NCBI GenBank assembly: GCA_007134215.1
Contig: SLLG01000056.1
Span: forward strand, 1 to 64,000
Reading direction: 5' to 3'
DNA length: 64,000 nt
Source of the DNA: Opitutales bacterium
Lineage (GTDB): Bacteria; Verrucomicrobiota; Verrucomicrobiia; Opitutales; Oceanipulchritudinaceae
Shown: in pieces, positions 7,160 through 49,082 of the stretch
How positions within the stretch are numbered: the stretch's first letter is position 1
Layout of the letters: every line of letters begins with the position of its first letter
Translations under genes and position numbers: made by a program
The notes under the pieces: generated by a model
Databases searched by the model: none
What the model was told of the DNA's origin: nothing
The model's input: the letters and a program-made list of their open reading frames with translations, nothing else

Positions 7160-7320
7160 GTCACCCGCGGCAACCGGACTGCCGCACGCCGGACCAACGG
7201 CTTCAGCCGTCGCTCGCGAACGCGAACCATCCATCCACCGCAGTCACCGGCTAAAGGCAGCGGTCCCGCACAAACCGCCCACTAAAGGAAGAAACGAACT
7301 TTCCAGGTTCAGAACATAGA

Positions 7321-7479
7321 CGGGCTGATTGATTGCTCGCTCTCAGGGACCTGCCGGAGGTCTCGCGCGCCGACTTCATGAAAGGACGCGTCGGTAAGCT
7401 TTCAGCCCTTGGGGTCCGGGGATGAATCTCCCGGACTACCGAACTTCGGTGCGAAGAGATGCAAGCTACAGGCTACACT
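7321..7479 (-). repeat. structured ~160-bp repeat, copy A (3' end of the M29-type peptidase gene)
   Basis: Closely matches 13491-13651 over its full length, with one small indel near 7380. Four hairpins can be drawn. 7348-7362 pairs GACCT with AGGTC. 7370-7394 pairs CCGAC with GTCGG. 7414-7436 pairs GTCCGGG with CCCGGAC. 7444-7456 pairs CTTCG with CGAAG. The element ends at the TAG stop of the minus-strand gene at 7478, so it lies directly in that gene's 3' untranslated region. It fills about half of the ~320-bp gap after mutY; I see nothing else in 7160-7320. Confidence 0.85.
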
Positions 7480-8650
7480 ACACCGTCGCCGACTCGCTTT
7501 GCGCAATCAGTCCCACCATATACTCGCCGGGCTTGTAGTTGCCCATGATGACGGTCGTCTCGCCGTCGCGGTGCATGCGCACTTCGGGCACCTTGACCTC
7601 CGGGGTCTTGTGCGGCGCGTAGAGCACGTCGTCGTGCGAGGCATGCGCCTTCTCCTTGAAGAGATCCGGGGTCAGCTTCCCGCCGAGGTGGTCGTCGCGC
7701 CCGGTGGCGATGTGGATCGTTCCGAGGATCTTTTCGTCCTGGATATCGCGTCCGCTAAAGGGAAGGACCTGCGTGCCGAAGCCAAGCTCGCCGAGCGCCC
7801 CGACCATTGGATCGTAGGCGAGCTTTTCGTTGTGTTCCTTGATCTTTCCGTAATCGCCGTAGATAAGACGGCTGTGCACGATCCTGCCGTCCTCGACGGT
7901 GAGGAGACCGAGTGTCTCCTCGTCATATTTGAAGGGGAATTGCCCCTCCGCGCCCTCCGGCACATAATAGACTTCTCCGGCCGGCAGGTTGGCGACGTCG
8001 GGCTCACCCGGCGGGCAAAGGCCGTGGCTTTTCTGCGCCTCCTGCCCGTTGGTAAGGAGACGAAGCGTGGTCTTTTTGCCCTCCACGACGAAATCGATCT
8101 CAAACCAGTCGGCGCGCGTGAGGCCAAGGCGGAGTTGCTCGGTGCGCGCGCTGACTTCCTCGTAATCCACGCTCAGGCCCGTTTCGAGAATGATCTGGTT
8201 AAGACCGTGCAGCGTCGCCCCGCGGAAACCGAACTCCCTGGCCTTGGCCGTGAGCGGCGCCGTAGCGGAGAAGGTGGAGACGCAGAGGATAAGGTCGTAA
8301 TTCGGGTAGATATCGCGGTCGAGGCTGAGTTGCCGTCCGTCAGGGGCGTGGCATTCGTCCTCCATGTCGAGATTGCTGCCGCCGGTTTCCTTGTAAGCGT
8401 AGATCTCGCCGCCCACGTAATTCATCTCGTCGAGACCACCGTCCCGCAGGCCCTTGTAGAAGACTTCGTAGCCATAGTTCTGGATGGAAAGGGCGGGGTT
8501 TTCGAGAAAGGCGAAGTCTTTGATCTCCGCGGGATCCGGAAGATCAATGAGAATGCACACGCGTTCGCCGTTGCCCGGGCCAAACGACGTCTCGAGGAGA
8601 CGGCGGAGCGAAAACGGCGGAAACTCGATCTTATTTGCGTCAAATTCCAT
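7478..8650 (-). CDS. M29-type (aminopeptidase T-like) metallopeptidase
   Basis: 390 aa from the ATG at 8650. The C-terminal half has the M29 signatures: NLPAGEVYYVPEG (metal-binding Glu), GALGELGFGTQ (second Glu), DEKILGTIHIATGRDDHLGG (His), and a later HASHDDV (His and Asp). These match the two-metal site of AmpS/AmpT aminopeptidases. The N-terminal half is the less conserved substrate-capping part. No signal peptide is visible, so it should be cytoplasmic. The family match is by motif; exact specificity is unknown. The repeat at 7321-7479 begins at its stop codon. Confidence 0.75.
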   Translation of the reverse strand: MEFDANKIEFPPFSLRRLLETSFGPGNGERVCILIDLPDPAEIKDFAFLENPALSIQNYGYEVFYKGLRDGGLDEMNYVGGEIYAYKETGGSNLDMEDECHAPDGRQLSLDRDIYPNYDLILCVSTFSATAPLTAKAREFGFRGATLHGLNQIILETGLSVDYEEVSARTEQLRLGLTRADWFEIDFVVEGKKTTLRLLTNGQEAQKSHGLCPPGEPDVANLPAGEVYYVPEGAEGQFPFKYDEETLGLLTVEDGRIVHSRLIYGDYGKIKEHNEKLAYDPMVGALGELGFGTQVLPFSGRDIQDEKILGTIHIATGRDDHLGGKLTPDLFKEKAHASHDDVLYAPHKTPEVKVPEVRMHRDGETTVIMGNYKPGEYMVGLIAQSESATV

Positions 8651-8747
8651 GAATGAAAAACTGGAGGTTTGCAGGTTACTTGGAACGAAACCGTAATCAT
8701 TAGACGGATGACGCCGGGGACGCAACCTCAGCATCCAAAATCTATGC

Positions 8748-8780
8748 AAAAAAAACGCCGCCCGGAAAAGGGGCGGCGCT
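8748..8780 (-). terminator. rho-independent terminator of the mscS gene
   Basis: On the minus strand an 8-bp GC stem (GCCGCCCC / GGGCGGCG) is followed directly by a run of about eight T. It sits just past the stop of the MscS-type gene and before the start of the M29-type gene, so the two genes are separate transcription units. Confidence 0.85.
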
Positions 8781-8809
8781 GAAAACGAAAGCATTGAGCG
8801 AAGCGGACT

Positions 8810-12365: not shown

Positions 12366-13373
12366 TCATCCGCGCGGGTCTTCGACCGCGCAATACCTTG
12401 CCCGTGAGCGGGCGACCACGAGGTCGACATTGTCGAGCAGTTCAACAGGATGGCACGGCGGCGGATGTCTCATCTTTGCGAGGACGCTTGCGCCTTCACC
12501 GCGTTCCAGCCACTCGCTCGAACCCAGCACGCGCCCTTCCGTGAGAAACCGCGCGCGCAGCCGCAGCAATTCGTGTGGCTGCAACTCTCCGCCGTTCTTC
12601 ACCGCTTCCAGCAGCACCGCGGTGTCGATGCGCGCGCCCGTGCCGTCGCCCTTCGCGCCCGCTCCTTTCCCGAGCATCAGCAACCGGTAGCGCGCAAGCG
12701 CGTCCGTCGTGTCCTTCGCCCCCGGAAAGCTGGCGGCCAGTGCGCGGCAGAGCGTCTCCCTCCCCGCGAGCGCCTCGGTGTAGCCGCACCATCGGTAGTT
12801 CTCCGGAAGACCCGCCAAGCCCGCCCGCACCGCGTTCAGGTCGATGTAGGCCGCGATCAAGCCCACAAGCCACGGCGTATCCTGCACAAGTACGCTGCCG
12901 AAGCGCTCCGCCCACATTGTTCCAGCCGTCTCGTGCGCGCGGTTGAACCAGCGCGTGTAGCGTTGCCGTAACGTGCGCATGAACTCCGACACATCCCCCA
13001 TGCGGCGGCGCAGCCGCTCGCGCAGGGCCTCCGCCTCCTCCGGCCGACCCTTCTCCAGTGCGTGCGCCAGTTCATCCGCGTTGAGACCGCTCCACTGCGC
13101 GCGCGACTCCCCGTAGAGCGCGCGGTAACGCCGCACGAACGTGGCGTCGTCGCACAACCGCGCCGCCGGATCGATGCGCACGAGAATGTGGAAGTGCGTT
13201 TCCAGCACACAGTAGGTGATCACCTCCACCCCGCTGAACTCCGCCGTGCGGTGCAGCGCCGCAACCCACACCTCCCGTTGCCCCTCCGCCAGCAGCCGCC
13301 GCTTCTGGATCACACGGGATGTCACATGATACACCGCCGGACCGTCTTCACCTTTGATACGAATTTCGCCCAT
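12366..13373 (-). CDS. RAYT / IS200-like HUH (Y1) transposase, copy 1
   Basis: 335 aa. The HUH motif is H60-F-H62 in CVLETHFHILVRID, and the catalytic Tyr is probably Y139 in LRQRYTRWFN. The segment WAERFGSVLVQD...AAYIDLNAVRAGL is typical of REP-associated tyrosine transposases. The C-terminal ~100 aa are a lineage-specific extension. It is colinear with the copy at 48048-49082. No flanking inverted repeats or target duplication are seen, which fits a domesticated RAYT. Repeat copy B begins about 120 bp upstream of the start. Confidence 0.88.
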   Translation of the reverse strand: MGEIRIKGEDGPAVYHVTSRVIQKRRLLAEGQREVWVAALHRTAEFSGVEVITYCVLETHFHILVRIDPAARLCDDATFVRRYRALYGESRAQWSGLNADELAHALEKGRPEEAEALRERLRRRMGDVSEFMRTLRQRYTRWFNRAHETAGTMWAERFGSVLVQDTPWLVGLIAAYIDLNAVRAGLAGLPENYRWCGYTEALAGRETLCRALAASFPGAKDTTDALARYRLLMLGKGAGAKGDGTGARIDTAVLLEAVKNGGELQPHELLRLRARFLTEGRVLGSSEWLERGEGASVLAKMRHPPPCHPVELLDNVDLVVARSRARYCAVEDPRG

Positions 13374-13490
13374 AACAAGGATAACTATGGAGGTTACGGA
13401 ACCGGAACACAAGATATTTTCTTCAAGAAATTTATCGCTGGGCCTATCAGAGGAAAACACGAAGTTATTCGGGTTGAGAGCGTAGAAGGC

Positions 13491-13651
13491 GGCTGATTCA
13501 TCGCCCGCTCACAGGGGCCTGCCGGAGGTCTCGCGCGCCGACTTCAATAAAATAAAGGGCGCGTCGGTAAGCTTTCTCCCCCTTGCGGTCCGGGGATGAA
13601 TCTCCCGGAGTACCGAACTTCGGTGCGAAAAAAGGCAGGTTACAGGCGACT
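13491..13651 (-). repeat. structured ~160-bp repeat, copy B (3' end of the EF-G2-like gene)
   Basis: Second copy of the element at 7321-7479, same orientation, again ending at the TAG stop of the upstream minus-strand gene (13650). The hairpin stems persist where the sequence differs: GGCCT/AGGTC (wobble pair), CCGAC/GTCGG around a longer AT-rich loop, TCCGGG/CCCGGA, and TTCG/CGAA. It separates the EF-G2-like gene from RAYT copy 1. Confidence 0.85.
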
Positions 13652-15734
13652 AGTGATTGGCTCCTTTGGCGGCTTTCGCCTCGGCGATGACTTTCTGTTC
13701 GAGGGCGGGGTCCATTTCCTCGTAGTGGGAGACGGCTTCCTCGTGCACGCCCTGGCCGCCGGTGATGGAGCGCAGGGCGGTGGAATAGCGGTAAAGCTCG
13801 ACCTGCGGCACCTGCGCGCGGATCACCTGCAGCCCGCTCTCGGCGTCGACCCCCTGAATGCGCCCGCGGCGGCTGGAGATATCGCCCATAACGTCGCCCA
13901 CGTAGTTCTCGGGCACACGGATGGTGACATCGCAAATGGGTTCGAGGAGGCAGGGTTTGGCGGCCATGAAGGCCTCGCGGAAGGCGGCCTTGCCCGCGAT
14001 CTGGAAGGCCACGTCCTTCGAATCGACGGGGTGCATCTTGCCGTCGTAAAAATCGACCTTCAAATCGACGATGCGGTATCCCGCGAGAACGCCCTCGTTG
14101 CAGGCGGCGTTGACGCCCTTCTCCACGGAGGGGACGAAGACGCGGTCGACATTCTGGCCGACGAGCGAGTTTGTGAACTCGACTCCGCTGTCGCGCGGGA
14201 GCGGTTCGATGCGCATCCACACTTCGGCGAACTGCCCGGCCCCACCGGACTGTTTTTTGTGCCTGTATTTGGAGTCCGCCTTCTTCTTGATGGTCTCGCG
14301 GAAGGGCACGCGCGGCTCGACGAGTTCCACGTCGACGTTAAACCGGCGCTTGAGGCGTTCGAGGATAATGGCGAGGTGCAGCTCGCCCTGGCCGGAAAGG
14401 ACGGTCTCCCGTGTCTCGGGGTCGTTGCGGTAGAGGAAGGTGGGGTCTTCCTCGTGCAAGGTCGAAAGCCCCGTGCCCAGCCGGTCTTCGTCGCCCTTTG
14501 TCTTGAGCCGGAGGGCTCCGTGGATGTTGGGCCTCGGGTATTCGACGGGCGGCAAGGTAACGTGGCGTTTCACGCTGCTGAGGGTGTTGCCGGTATGGGT
14601 GTCGCGCAGCTTGACGGCCGCGCCGATATCGCCGGGGCCGATGGACTCCGCCGCCTCGCGGTCGTGCCCGTTGACGTGAAAGAGCTGGCCGAGGCGCTCG
14701 TTGAGGCGGCGGTCCGAGTTGTAGACATCCACGCCAGTGCGGATGCTGCCGGAATACATGCGGAAGAACGACAGCTCACCGACGTGCGCCTCGCTGAGCG
14801 TCTTGAAGACATAGCAGGCGGGCTCCGGATCATCGAGTGCGATGAGCGTCTCGGTGCCGCTCTCGTCAAAGGCCGGCACTTTCTTGCGGTCGACCGGGGA
14901 GGAACCGTATTTGGCGACAAAGTCGAGCAGACGCGCGACGCCCACGTTCGTCTCCGCCGAGGTCACGAAGAGCGGGATAAAGGCTTGGCTCTGCACGGCG
15001 GCGTGGATACCGGCGCGCATCGTCTCCTCGCTGAGCGTGCCTTCCTCAAAGAACTTTTCGAGGAGGCTGTCGTCCGACTCGGCGACAAATTCGATCAGCT
15101 CGCGGTGAAGCTCCTTCACGCGCCCGGCGTCCTCGCCGGAGACCTCCTGTTCGGTGAACTTGCCGCTCGCGTCCTTGGCGTAGACGCACTCCTCGTTACG
15201 CAGGACATCGAGGACGCGGTGAAAACCCGGCCCAGCGTCGAGCGGCAGCGTCATTGGAAAGACGGTTCGTCCGAACCGCTCGCGCAGGGATTCGAGCACG
15301 AGATCGAAGTCCACGTGCTCCTTGTCCGCGCCGTTGACGACGATAACGCGCGGGAGTTCAAAGCGGTCGGCGAACTCCCACACTTTGGAGGTGCCCATCT
15401 CCGGCCCGGTGGAGGCATTCACGACGACCATGGCAAAGTCGCCGACGCGCAGCGCCCCGAGCGCCTCGCTGATGAAGTCGAGGTACCCCGGCGTATCGAG
15501 GATGTTGAGCTTCTTCTCCATCCACTCCGCGTTCATGATCGATGCATGCACCGAAATCTTCCGCTGTTTTTCGCTCACGTGGTAATCGGATACGGTGGTT
15601 CCCGCTTCGATACTGCCGATACGGTTGATCCGGCCGGCGCAGCGGAGCATCGCTTCCACGAGCATGGTTTTTCCGGATGCCTGGTGACCCACGATCGCGA
15701 AATTGCGGATATCCTTCGGGGCGTATTGCTTCAT
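13650..15734 (-). CDS. EF-G paralog (EF-G2-like translational GTPase)
   Basis: 694 aa with the EF-G domain order: G domain (1 to about 265), domain II (about 300-390), III, IV and V to the end. The P-loop is GHQASGKT (16-23). Two canonical positions differ from true EF-G. The G3 motif is DTPGY (80-84), where the catalytic His is replaced by Tyr. The G4 motif is NGAD (134-137) instead of NKxD. These changes, and a position outside any str operon, mark the EF-G2-like paralogs, whose role is uncertain; the mycobacterial EF-G2 has been reported to lack GTPase activity. The main fusA should be elsewhere in the genome. Confidence 0.88.
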   Translation of the reverse strand: MKQYAPKDIRNFAIVGHQASGKTMLVEAMLRCAGRINRIGSIEAGTTVSDYHVSEKQRKISVHASIMNAEWMEKKLNILDTPGYLDFISEALGALRVGDFAMVVVNASTGPEMGTSKVWEFADRFELPRVIVVNGADKEHVDFDLVLESLRERFGRTVFPMTLPLDAGPGFHRVLDVLRNEECVYAKDASGKFTEQEVSGEDAGRVKELHRELIEFVAESDDSLLEKFFEEGTLSEETMRAGIHAAVQSQAFIPLFVTSAETNVGVARLLDFVAKYGSSPVDRKKVPAFDESGTETLIALDDPEPACYVFKTLSEAHVGELSFFRMYSGSIRTGVDVYNSDRRLNERLGQLFHVNGHDREAAESIGPGDIGAAVKLRDTHTGNTLSSVKRHVTLPPVEYPRPNIHGALRLKTKGDEDRLGTGLSTLHEEDPTFLYRNDPETRETVLSGQGELHLAIILERLKRRFNVDVELVEPRVPFRETIKKKADSKYRHKKQSGGAGQFAEVWMRIEPLPRDSGVEFTNSLVGQNVDRVFVPSVEKGVNAACNEGVLAGYRIVDLKVDFYDGKMHPVDSKDVAFQIAGKAAFREAFMAAKPCLLEPICDVTIRVPENYVGDVMGDISSRRGRIQGVDAESGLQVIRAQVPQVELYRYSTALRSITGGQGVHEEAVSHYEEMDPALEQKVIAEAKAAKGANH

Positions 15735-48047: not shown

Positions 48048-49082
48048 TCATTCGCGCCGAATTCCCGGAACGGATTGACCTCCAGTCGGTGCCTCAATGC
48101 CTGCGGCGGTCCAGTTCCCCACCACCGCCAGTTCCGCATCTTTCAGCACCTCGACGGGCCGCGCTCCGGGTGGCTTGTCCAGACGCGAAAGCGCCGCCCC
48201 ACCGGCCCCCTCCCGCAGCCACGCCTCCGTCCCCAGCGCCTTGCCTCGCGTGAAGAAGCGCGCCCGCAGCCGCAACAACTCGTGCGCCTCCAGCTCGCCG
48301 CCGGCCGCCGCCGCTTCCGCCAACGCCACCGGGTCGATCCGCCCGCCCGTCCCGTCGCGCTTCGACGCCGCCCCCTTGCCCAGCATCAGCAGGCGGTAGC
48401 GCGCCAGCGCACCCTCATCTCCGCCCTCCCCCGGAAAGCAGCCCGCAAGGGCGCGCCGCAGCTCCGCGTCCGCCCCGCACAGCGCCGCCGCATACCCGCT
48501 CCAGCGGTAGTCCTCCGGCAGCTCCGCCAAACCCGCCCGCACAGGATTCAGGTCGATGTATGCCGCCACAAGACCCACCAGCCACGGCACGTCCTGCACC
48601 AGAACGCTCGTGAAGCGCTCCGCCCACAGCGTCCCCACCGTGTCATACGTCTTGTTGAACCACATCGTGTAGCGCTGACGCAGCGTGCGCATGAACTCCG
48701 ATACGTTCCCCATGCGCGCGCGCAGCCGCTCGCGCAGCCGATCCGCCGCCTCCGGCGGGTCGTGCGCCAGCGCGTGCGCCAGCCCCGCCGCGTCCAGCCC
48801 GCACCACATCGCCTTCGCCCGGCCGTAGAGCGCGCGGAAGCGACGCACCAGCTCCGCGTCGTCACAGTCCTTCGCCGCCGGGTCGATGCGCACAAGGATA
48901 TGGAAATGGTTCTGTAAACAGCAGTAGGTGATCAGCTCCACCCCGCTGAACTCCGCCGCGCGCCGCAGCGCCGCCACCCACACCTCCCGCTGCACGTCCG
49001 CCAGCAAACGCCGCCGCTGCACCACGCGGGCAATGAGATGATAGATACATACTTTGTCTGATACGATTCGTTTATCGCCCAT
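48048..49082 (-). CDS. RAYT / IS200-like HUH (Y1) transposase, copy 2
   Basis: 344 aa from the ATG at 49082. HUH motif H59-F-H61 (CLQNHFHILVRID); probable catalytic Tyr Y138 in LRQRYTMWFN; then WAERFTSVLVQDVPWLVGLVAAYIDLNPVRAGL. It is colinear with copy 1 at 12366-13373, including the C-terminal extension, but clearly diverged, so it is a paralog and not a recent duplicate. Both flanks are non-coding and the upstream one is AT-rich. Confidence 0.88.
   Translation of the reverse strand: MGDKRIVSDKVCIYHLIARVVQRRRLLADVQREVWVAALRRAAEFSGVELITYCCLQNHFHILVRIDPAAKDCDDAELVRRFRALYGRAKAMWCGLDAAGLAHALAHDPPEAADRLRERLRARMGNVSEFMRTLRQRYTMWFNKTYDTVGTLWAERFTSVLVQDVPWLVGLVAAYIDLNPVRAGLAELPEDYRWSGYAAALCGADAELRRALAGCFPGEGGDEGALARYRLLMLGKGAASKRDGTGGRIDPVALAEAAAAGGELEAHELLRLRARFFTRGKALGTEAWLREGAGGAALSRLDKPPGARPVEVLKDAELAVVGNWTAAGIEAPTGGQSVPGIRRE

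Follow-up and report, generated by a model that had tools for sequence, protein, structure and literature searches.

Paired inverted GTAG hairpins behind stop codons in an Opitutales genome: probably a dispersed REP-dimer family

A structured repeat found twice in a 64,000-nucleotide stretch of an Opitutales genome (the window, C101:1-64000 of the host assembly, which comprises 4.44 Mb in 374 contigs and is designated G000) is likely a non-autonomous REP-dimer element, which would owe its position at gene ends to the choice of target and to purifying selection and not to an RNA function. The element probably adds a new family to an established class of mobile repeats, dispersed by a RAYT transposase, rather than being a new RNA. 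Three Opitutales metagenome-assembled genomes, G001, G002 and G006, were used as compared relatives. The two copies in the window, A and B, comprise the following features, listed together with the transposase-like gene next to copy B.

7282..7477, minus strand: copy A, whole, ~196-200 bp with an approximate right end (17-copy alignment; element-free site in G001 and G002).
7416..7439, minus strand: REP-L of copy A, GTAG foot 7436-7439, loop (A/T)GATTCATC (pattern search, 1 mismatch; alignment).
7316..7340, plus strand: REP-R of copy A, the decayed inverted partner, foot ATAG, loop TGATTGATT (dimer alignment).
7478..7480, minus strand: native TAG stop of ORF 7478-8794, outside the element (TAG in the G001 orthologue, TGA in G002).
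13445..13649, minus strand: copy B, whole, right end approximate (copy alignment; element-free site in G001 and G002).
13590..13613, minus strand: REP-L of copy B, foot GTAC 13610-13613 (alignment).
13482..13508, plus strand: REP-R of copy B, foot GTAG 13482-13485, loop TGATTCATC (alignment).
13650..13652, minus strand: native TAG stop of the EF-G gene 13650-15734, outside the element (CACTAG in G001 and CACTGA in G002, both element-free).
12366..13460, minus strand: Y1 transposase-like ORF beside copy B (Pfam PF01797; NCBIfam RAYT model 43.6 of 80 bits, below the cut-off).

An earlier note on this DNA had described a ~160-bp repeat in two copies. The match it reported is real and far above chance (7321-7479 against 13491-13650, same strand, 85% identity, E = 1.8e-45), and its length needs revision: in an alignment of 17 own-genome copies with their flanks, a further 35-45 nt past 7321 and 13491 are common to most copies, so that the unit measures ~200 bp and had been clipped on one side. 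Read on the minus strand, it starts directly after the stop (..TAG TCGCCTGTAAC..) and ends in ..GTTTTCCTC, behind which lies a short variable stretch that is frequently similar to the complement of TAG. The contact with stop codons is likewise as described. The left end of copy A touches the TAG at 7478-7480 (minus strand), which is the stop of ORF 7478-8794, and copy B touches the TAG at 13650-13652, the stop of a gene identified as EF-G by Pfam and NCBIfam. The label of M29-type peptidase attached to the product of 7478-8794 (minus strand) is not supported, as the protein matches nothing in Pfam, NCBIfam or PDB sequences; a search for its relatives hit 67 loci, each of them in a Verrucomicrobiota-type record.

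The pair of copies is part of a larger population. A whole-genome blastn search with the element, which the note had proposed as a check, gives 17 matches and not two. Identity to copy A ranges over 75-100% among the 17 (75-89% for the other copies). Both sides are present in 12 of them, with a reduced left hairpin in L014, and one side or part of one is missing in the remaining five (L006, L012, L015, L016, L017). The repeat is thus dispersed and extragenic, with 17 element matches and 20 hairpin matches in its own genome and none of the 17 inside a called gene.

Each unit consists of two different GTAG-tagged imperfect palindromes that are inverted to each other and share the loop TGATTCATC. 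REP-L reads GTAG TCCGGG TGATTCATC CCCGGA, and REP-R, on the opposite strand, GTAG GCGGGC TGATTCATC GCCCGC; a leader of ~35 nt lies outside each GTAG of the dimer. Eighteen dimers were aligned, 11 from the own genome, six from G001 and one from G006; their two hairpins start 87-101 nt apart, 16 of the 18 at 93-98, and are nearly invariant, whereas the spacer and outer arms vary between genera. In its architecture the unit corresponds to a GTAG REP head-head heterodimer, a REPIN/BIME-like arrangement. As far as the cited sections of Di Nocera et al. 2013 (PMC3733652) describe them, GTAG REP head-head (HH) dimers share the GTAG at the outer feet, the inverted pairing and the occurrence of heterodimers with different stems; GTAG REPs also occur there as singles and tandem clusters, mostly in convergent or unidirectional gaps, as they do here. 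Several GTAG families are on record for O. terrae in the same sections, and the loop TGATTCATC is a putative distinguishing feature of the present family relative to the 24 of that paper. The REPINs of Pseudomonas fluorescens SBW25, in the cited parts of Bertels and Rainey 2011 (PMC3116915), are similar in that an inverted REP doublet with a diverged spacer forms the unit and a RAYT lies nearby; their preferred spacings are 71 and 110 bp, against ~95 nt here. Unlike the REPINs described there, the present element is a heterodimer whose L and R stems differ, has conserved leaders outside the REPs in its own genome, and numbers tens rather than hundreds of copies. In the literature matches listed, none brings REPIN or RAYT together with Opitutales.

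The hairpin type has a narrow distribution. The pattern GTAGNSSGGNTGATTCATCNCCSS, run with up to one mismatch on 55 genomes with the reversed pattern as a control, matches 20 times in G000, 28 in G001, 16 in G002 and 56 in G006 (one family); the other 51 of the 55 genomes yield no match, and the reversed control yields none in all 55. A class-wide draw gave matches in 5 of 286 genomes, namely G000, G002, G006 and two others with a single one-mismatch match each, G001 being absent from the rows of this draw. GTAG is exact in 94 of the 120 pattern matches and differs by one change in the remaining 26, the pattern permitting one mismatch. At stem pair 6-22, 56 matches have C-G and 64 have G-C; all 120 are complementary here, which the pattern does not demand. 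Such compensatory stem changes separate hairpin subtypes, as they commonly do in REPs. Some subtypes form tandem arrays, for instance in G002:C106 with a distance of ~157 nt between copies. For the TGATTCATC hairpin, arrays repeating every ~150-200 bp were seen in L158 (G002:C106) and on G006:C170, C191, C230 and C231; since several of these lie where a contig ends, the copy numbers are probably too low.

Judged from sequence, one locus, G002:C155, ties the hairpin type to a RAYT in the genus. A 199-aa protein encoded there scores 82.6 bits against NCBIfam REP_Tyr_transpos (cut-off 80) and 19.6 bits against Pfam Y1_Tnp, under the cut-off of 23. Its gene ends in ..CTG CGG TAG, where the TAG is the GTAG foot of GTAGTCGGGATGATTCATCGCCCGAC, and the same 24-mer is present in the own genome (C135:3476); it is this shared hairpin at the end of the gene that makes the link. 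One intact REP stands at the stop, and the other side of the gene holds only a degenerate stretch, as read by eye. Of 17 genomes searched for classical RAYTs, nine gave a total of 24 matches. REPs were sought in the flanks of 16 of these matches, and a GATT(C/T)ATC loop in 11 of the 16; in this set the hairpin was found at G002:C155 only, the others carrying different GTAG hairpins or none found. The search gave no cognate RAYT for the own genome, whose sole classical RAYT, at C146, has GTAG hairpins of other kinds in its flanks. That genome seems to have lost the cognate gene, or the draft misses it. Because the other copies are 75-89% identical to copy A and no cognate RAYT accompanies them, the copies in this genome are probably an ageing population. 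A RAYT with a hairpin at the gene end, as at G002:C155, recalls TnpAREP / RAYT systems in the cited parts of PMC8266576 and PMC2817692; the host differs from these systems in having no cognate RAYT found, and the G002 gene in having one intact hairpin beside it. The lack of a cognate RAYT in the own genome and the dependence of the link on a single G002 locus both count against the preferred reading.

Evidence of mobility comes from the sister genomes, in which ~11 kb around copies A and B are largely syntenic, most blocks at 83-89% identity. At the sites of A, B and L007 the element is absent from both G001 and G002. G002 is continuous without the element at L010, where G001 is informative at the stop side; at L004, G002 is informative at the stop side and lacks the element. 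These element-free orthologous sites bear out the earlier description of the repeat as mobile. The nine orthologous element-free gene ends carry a stop at the corresponding place (TAG in six, TGA in two, TAA in one), which shows that the element arrived behind a pre-existing stop and did not supply it. Neither a constant target-site duplication nor an exact cut is visible among the copies and element-free sites, and between genes the sister species are too diverged for placing the right-hand junction. The family offers readable insertions, with element-free sites in two sister genomes and a left edge that can be read to the base beside coding sequence.

Dispersal by a RAYT would proceed as follows, by analogy with characterised systems. 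TnpAREP, as described in the cited part of PMC8266576, binds the single-stranded hairpin, uses GTAG as a guide and cuts at C|T. A RAYT nuclease (HUH, Y1) would bind one hairpin strand of the dimer, cut outside the hairpin, and excise or copy the single-stranded dimer, which would then join a target already present at a stop or directly beside it, often C|TAG. Cleavage at C|T near GTAG, as in the TnpAREP / RAYT systems of the cited parts of PMC8266576 and PMC2817692, would suit the C-TAG junctions seen here. Selection would remove insertions within genes, and those behind stops would remain. The spread of REPs is itself described as poorly understood (PMC8266576, cited part).

The junctions also admit another reading, in which the repeat is a MITE of a DDE or other CTAG-targeting element and the REP-like hairpins are incidental subterminal palindromes. 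CTAG is common as the left junction, and the outer ends of own-genome copies resemble imperfect inverted repeats (CTAGTCG... / ...CGACTAG). In G001 copies, however, these outer arms are not kept and the GTAG hairpins are, and a MITE would be at odds with the missing constant duplication. The GTAG next to a palindrome, the inverted pairing and the RAYT that ends on the hairpin all suit REPs, and we regard a MITE as unlikely.

The placement of REP dimers relative to genes was examined with a codon-usage gene caller, run on the window and the retrieved stretches. Nine of the 17 own copies lie in convergent gaps, seven in tandem gaps and one in a divergent gap. The convergent share of 9/17 was tested against intergenic sequence in the window, counted in base pairs (272 of 7,629); when gaps are counted instead, the figure is 6/44. 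Eight copies are flush with a TAG stop, by the left end in L001, L004, L005, L007, L010 and L017 and by the right end in L002 and L016. Pfam matches were obtained for five of the six proteins whose genes adjoin flush copies outside the window, the exception being that of L010. The chance that a random non-coding position meets a TAG stop is roughly 1 in 1,400, so the placement at gene ends is not random; with 8/17 copies flush and 0/17 inside a called gene, the suggestion of more gene ends than a random insertion would give is upheld. Against the background of CTAG itself the excess is smaller: stops occur at 3 of 14 non-coding CTAG outside elements versus 8 of 17 copies (Fisher p = 0.13), small numbers from 182 kb of own DNA that was partly chosen via the element and Y1 searches. 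The placement is therefore not clearly above expectation if CTAG is the target and insertions in genes are lost. A test for TAG found it in 10 of 12 genes that face the element within ~60 nt, with a rough p and with L012 (a weakly scoring ORF) and further right-hand-side genes left out.

A larger sample is provided by single hairpins. In the four genomes, 131 deduplicated hairpins (up to two mismatches, after dropping those near stretch ends or repeating an earlier context) were placed against called genes, and one of the 131 lies inside a called gene; 23 are without an upstream gene in the stretch and 32 have a gene start upstream. Distances of 0-160 nt between a stop and the GTAG foot were obtained for 43 stop-facing hairpins. 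Twelve of the 43 stops lie 34-39 nt before the foot where 1.6 are expected (p = 4e-8), six among 15 in the own genome and six among 28 in the relatives (p = 5e-4). The flush copies L002 and L017 escaped this count and were read by eye. These 12 stops comprise eight TAG and four TGA: all six in the own genome are TAG, and the relatives have two TAG and four TGA. The interval of 0-33 nt is nearly empty, with 2 of the 43 stops, and in three further hairpins the GTAG itself serves as the stop codon. A second small group of stops stands 48-52 nt before the foot, ~13 nt beyond the main edge (L004 at its right side, L009, L011, L015, L019 and L147). Both this group and the TAG preference at the flush boundary, which is mainly an own-genome feature, count against the preferred reading.

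The nearly empty first 33 nt and the edge at 34-39 nt, which recurs in relatives with a diverged leader, point to a leader of ~36 nt as part of the mobile unit. More tentatively, the pile-up of stops at 34-39 nt may be a real dimer edge, with the RAYT inserting at stop-type targets (C-TAG / TGA); this is a possibility we hold with considerable doubt. If true, it would describe REPs with a defined leader and a gene-sparing target, and a geometric rule for where REPINs land. The termini of GTAG REPs often supply the TAG stop in the cited sections of Di Nocera et al. 2013 (PMC3733652); here, unlike there, the flush stop in eight own copies is the TAG of the gene itself, ~36 nt outside the GTAG. 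What may be novel in the family is the reproducible edge that a native stop forms ~36 nt from the hairpin foot, on its outer side. That the identical 34-39 nt edge is seen in diverged relatives adds to the readability of the insertions. MIRU-type stop-codon repeats would be a precedent; a literature search for them gave no useful result. A structured repeat at a stop codon can, as a caution, be explained by insertion target and selection, with no RNA function.

The same placement invites the view that the repeat is a functional 3'-UTR RNA, a terminator, stabiliser or source of small RNA that spread through its usefulness at gene ends. Gene 3' ends and convergent gaps are preferred, the hairpins would be transcribed, and roles of REPs in termination and mRNA stabilisation are hypothesised in the cited sections of PMC3733652. 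The earlier note had suggested that such a role was possible, and had described four hairpins. Several hairpins do appear in the minimum-energy fold, and only two are kept in the consensus of the 18 dimers (RNAalifold). A 207-nt stretch folds no better than its dinucleotide shuffles (RNA z = -0.20, DNA z = -0.84), 74 of 200 shuffles being equally or more stable as RNA. The compensatory stem changes proposed as support for an RNA are hardly found within the dimer family: a both-sided change affects 1 of 15 consensus pairs, in one row and at the foot, and the covariation term (RNAalifold, 18 dimers) is unfavourable. Rfam gave no match in the window, the terminator scan no terminator-like site in copy A or B, and neither a conserved RNA structure nor a stem with a U-tract was found. 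Orientation relative to the adjoining gene follows no rule either, since six flush copies meet the stop by the left end and two by the right, so that in L002 and L016 the opposite strand would be co-transcribed. The hairpin is missing from 51 of the 55 genomes, and the element from the orthologous gene ends examined. A terminator, stabiliser or small RNA thus receives no positive support from Rfam, the terminator scan, folding or the consensus structure, and we consider this explanation quite improbable.

It is more improbable still that the neighbouring high-copy Y1 family (12366-13460) is the mobiliser and the element its mini-version: copy B does lie ~10 bp from a Y1 unit end and the G001 copy L023 is also beside a family member, yet the ~1,075-bp unit is bounded by AATTTCTTGAAGAA and GTGACATCCG, unlike the ends of the element, and has no GTAG hairpins, the element's hairpin is near none of the 30 own Y1 loci read, and at site B the Y1 is present in G001 while the element is not. 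On the unit ends and the 30 loci without a hairpin, the Y1 gene of the window was rejected as the mobiliser. The multi-copy unit of this ORF stops at ~13432 and its ends are not common to the element, so its adjacency to copy B is probably fortuitous. A mini-element of the IS200/IS605 type, which has both end hairpins on the same strand, was likewise rejected, since the two hairpins of the present element are inverted to each other.

Some further repeats and transposase-like genes were observed along the way. Another hairpin repeat, CACGGACATTCCTGTCCGTG-like, occupies the gene-end gap of L102 (the G001 element-free site A) and recurs in the RAYT flanks of G001 and G002 (L177, L181). On G000:C146 (L043 / L165) the RAYT-like domain lies in frame inside a 1,075-aa open frame, which by eye has a restriction-modification-type look and is bordered on either side by GTAG hairpins that belong to a different type, GTAGCAGAGGCAATCCTGCCTCTG and its variants. 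The Y1 family has two members in the window, 12366-13460 and 48048-49082, both on the minus strand. Y1_Tnp matches number 47 across the own genome, and at the DNA level the family has dozens of matches in G001; a copy number of this order seems unusual for RAYT-like proteins.
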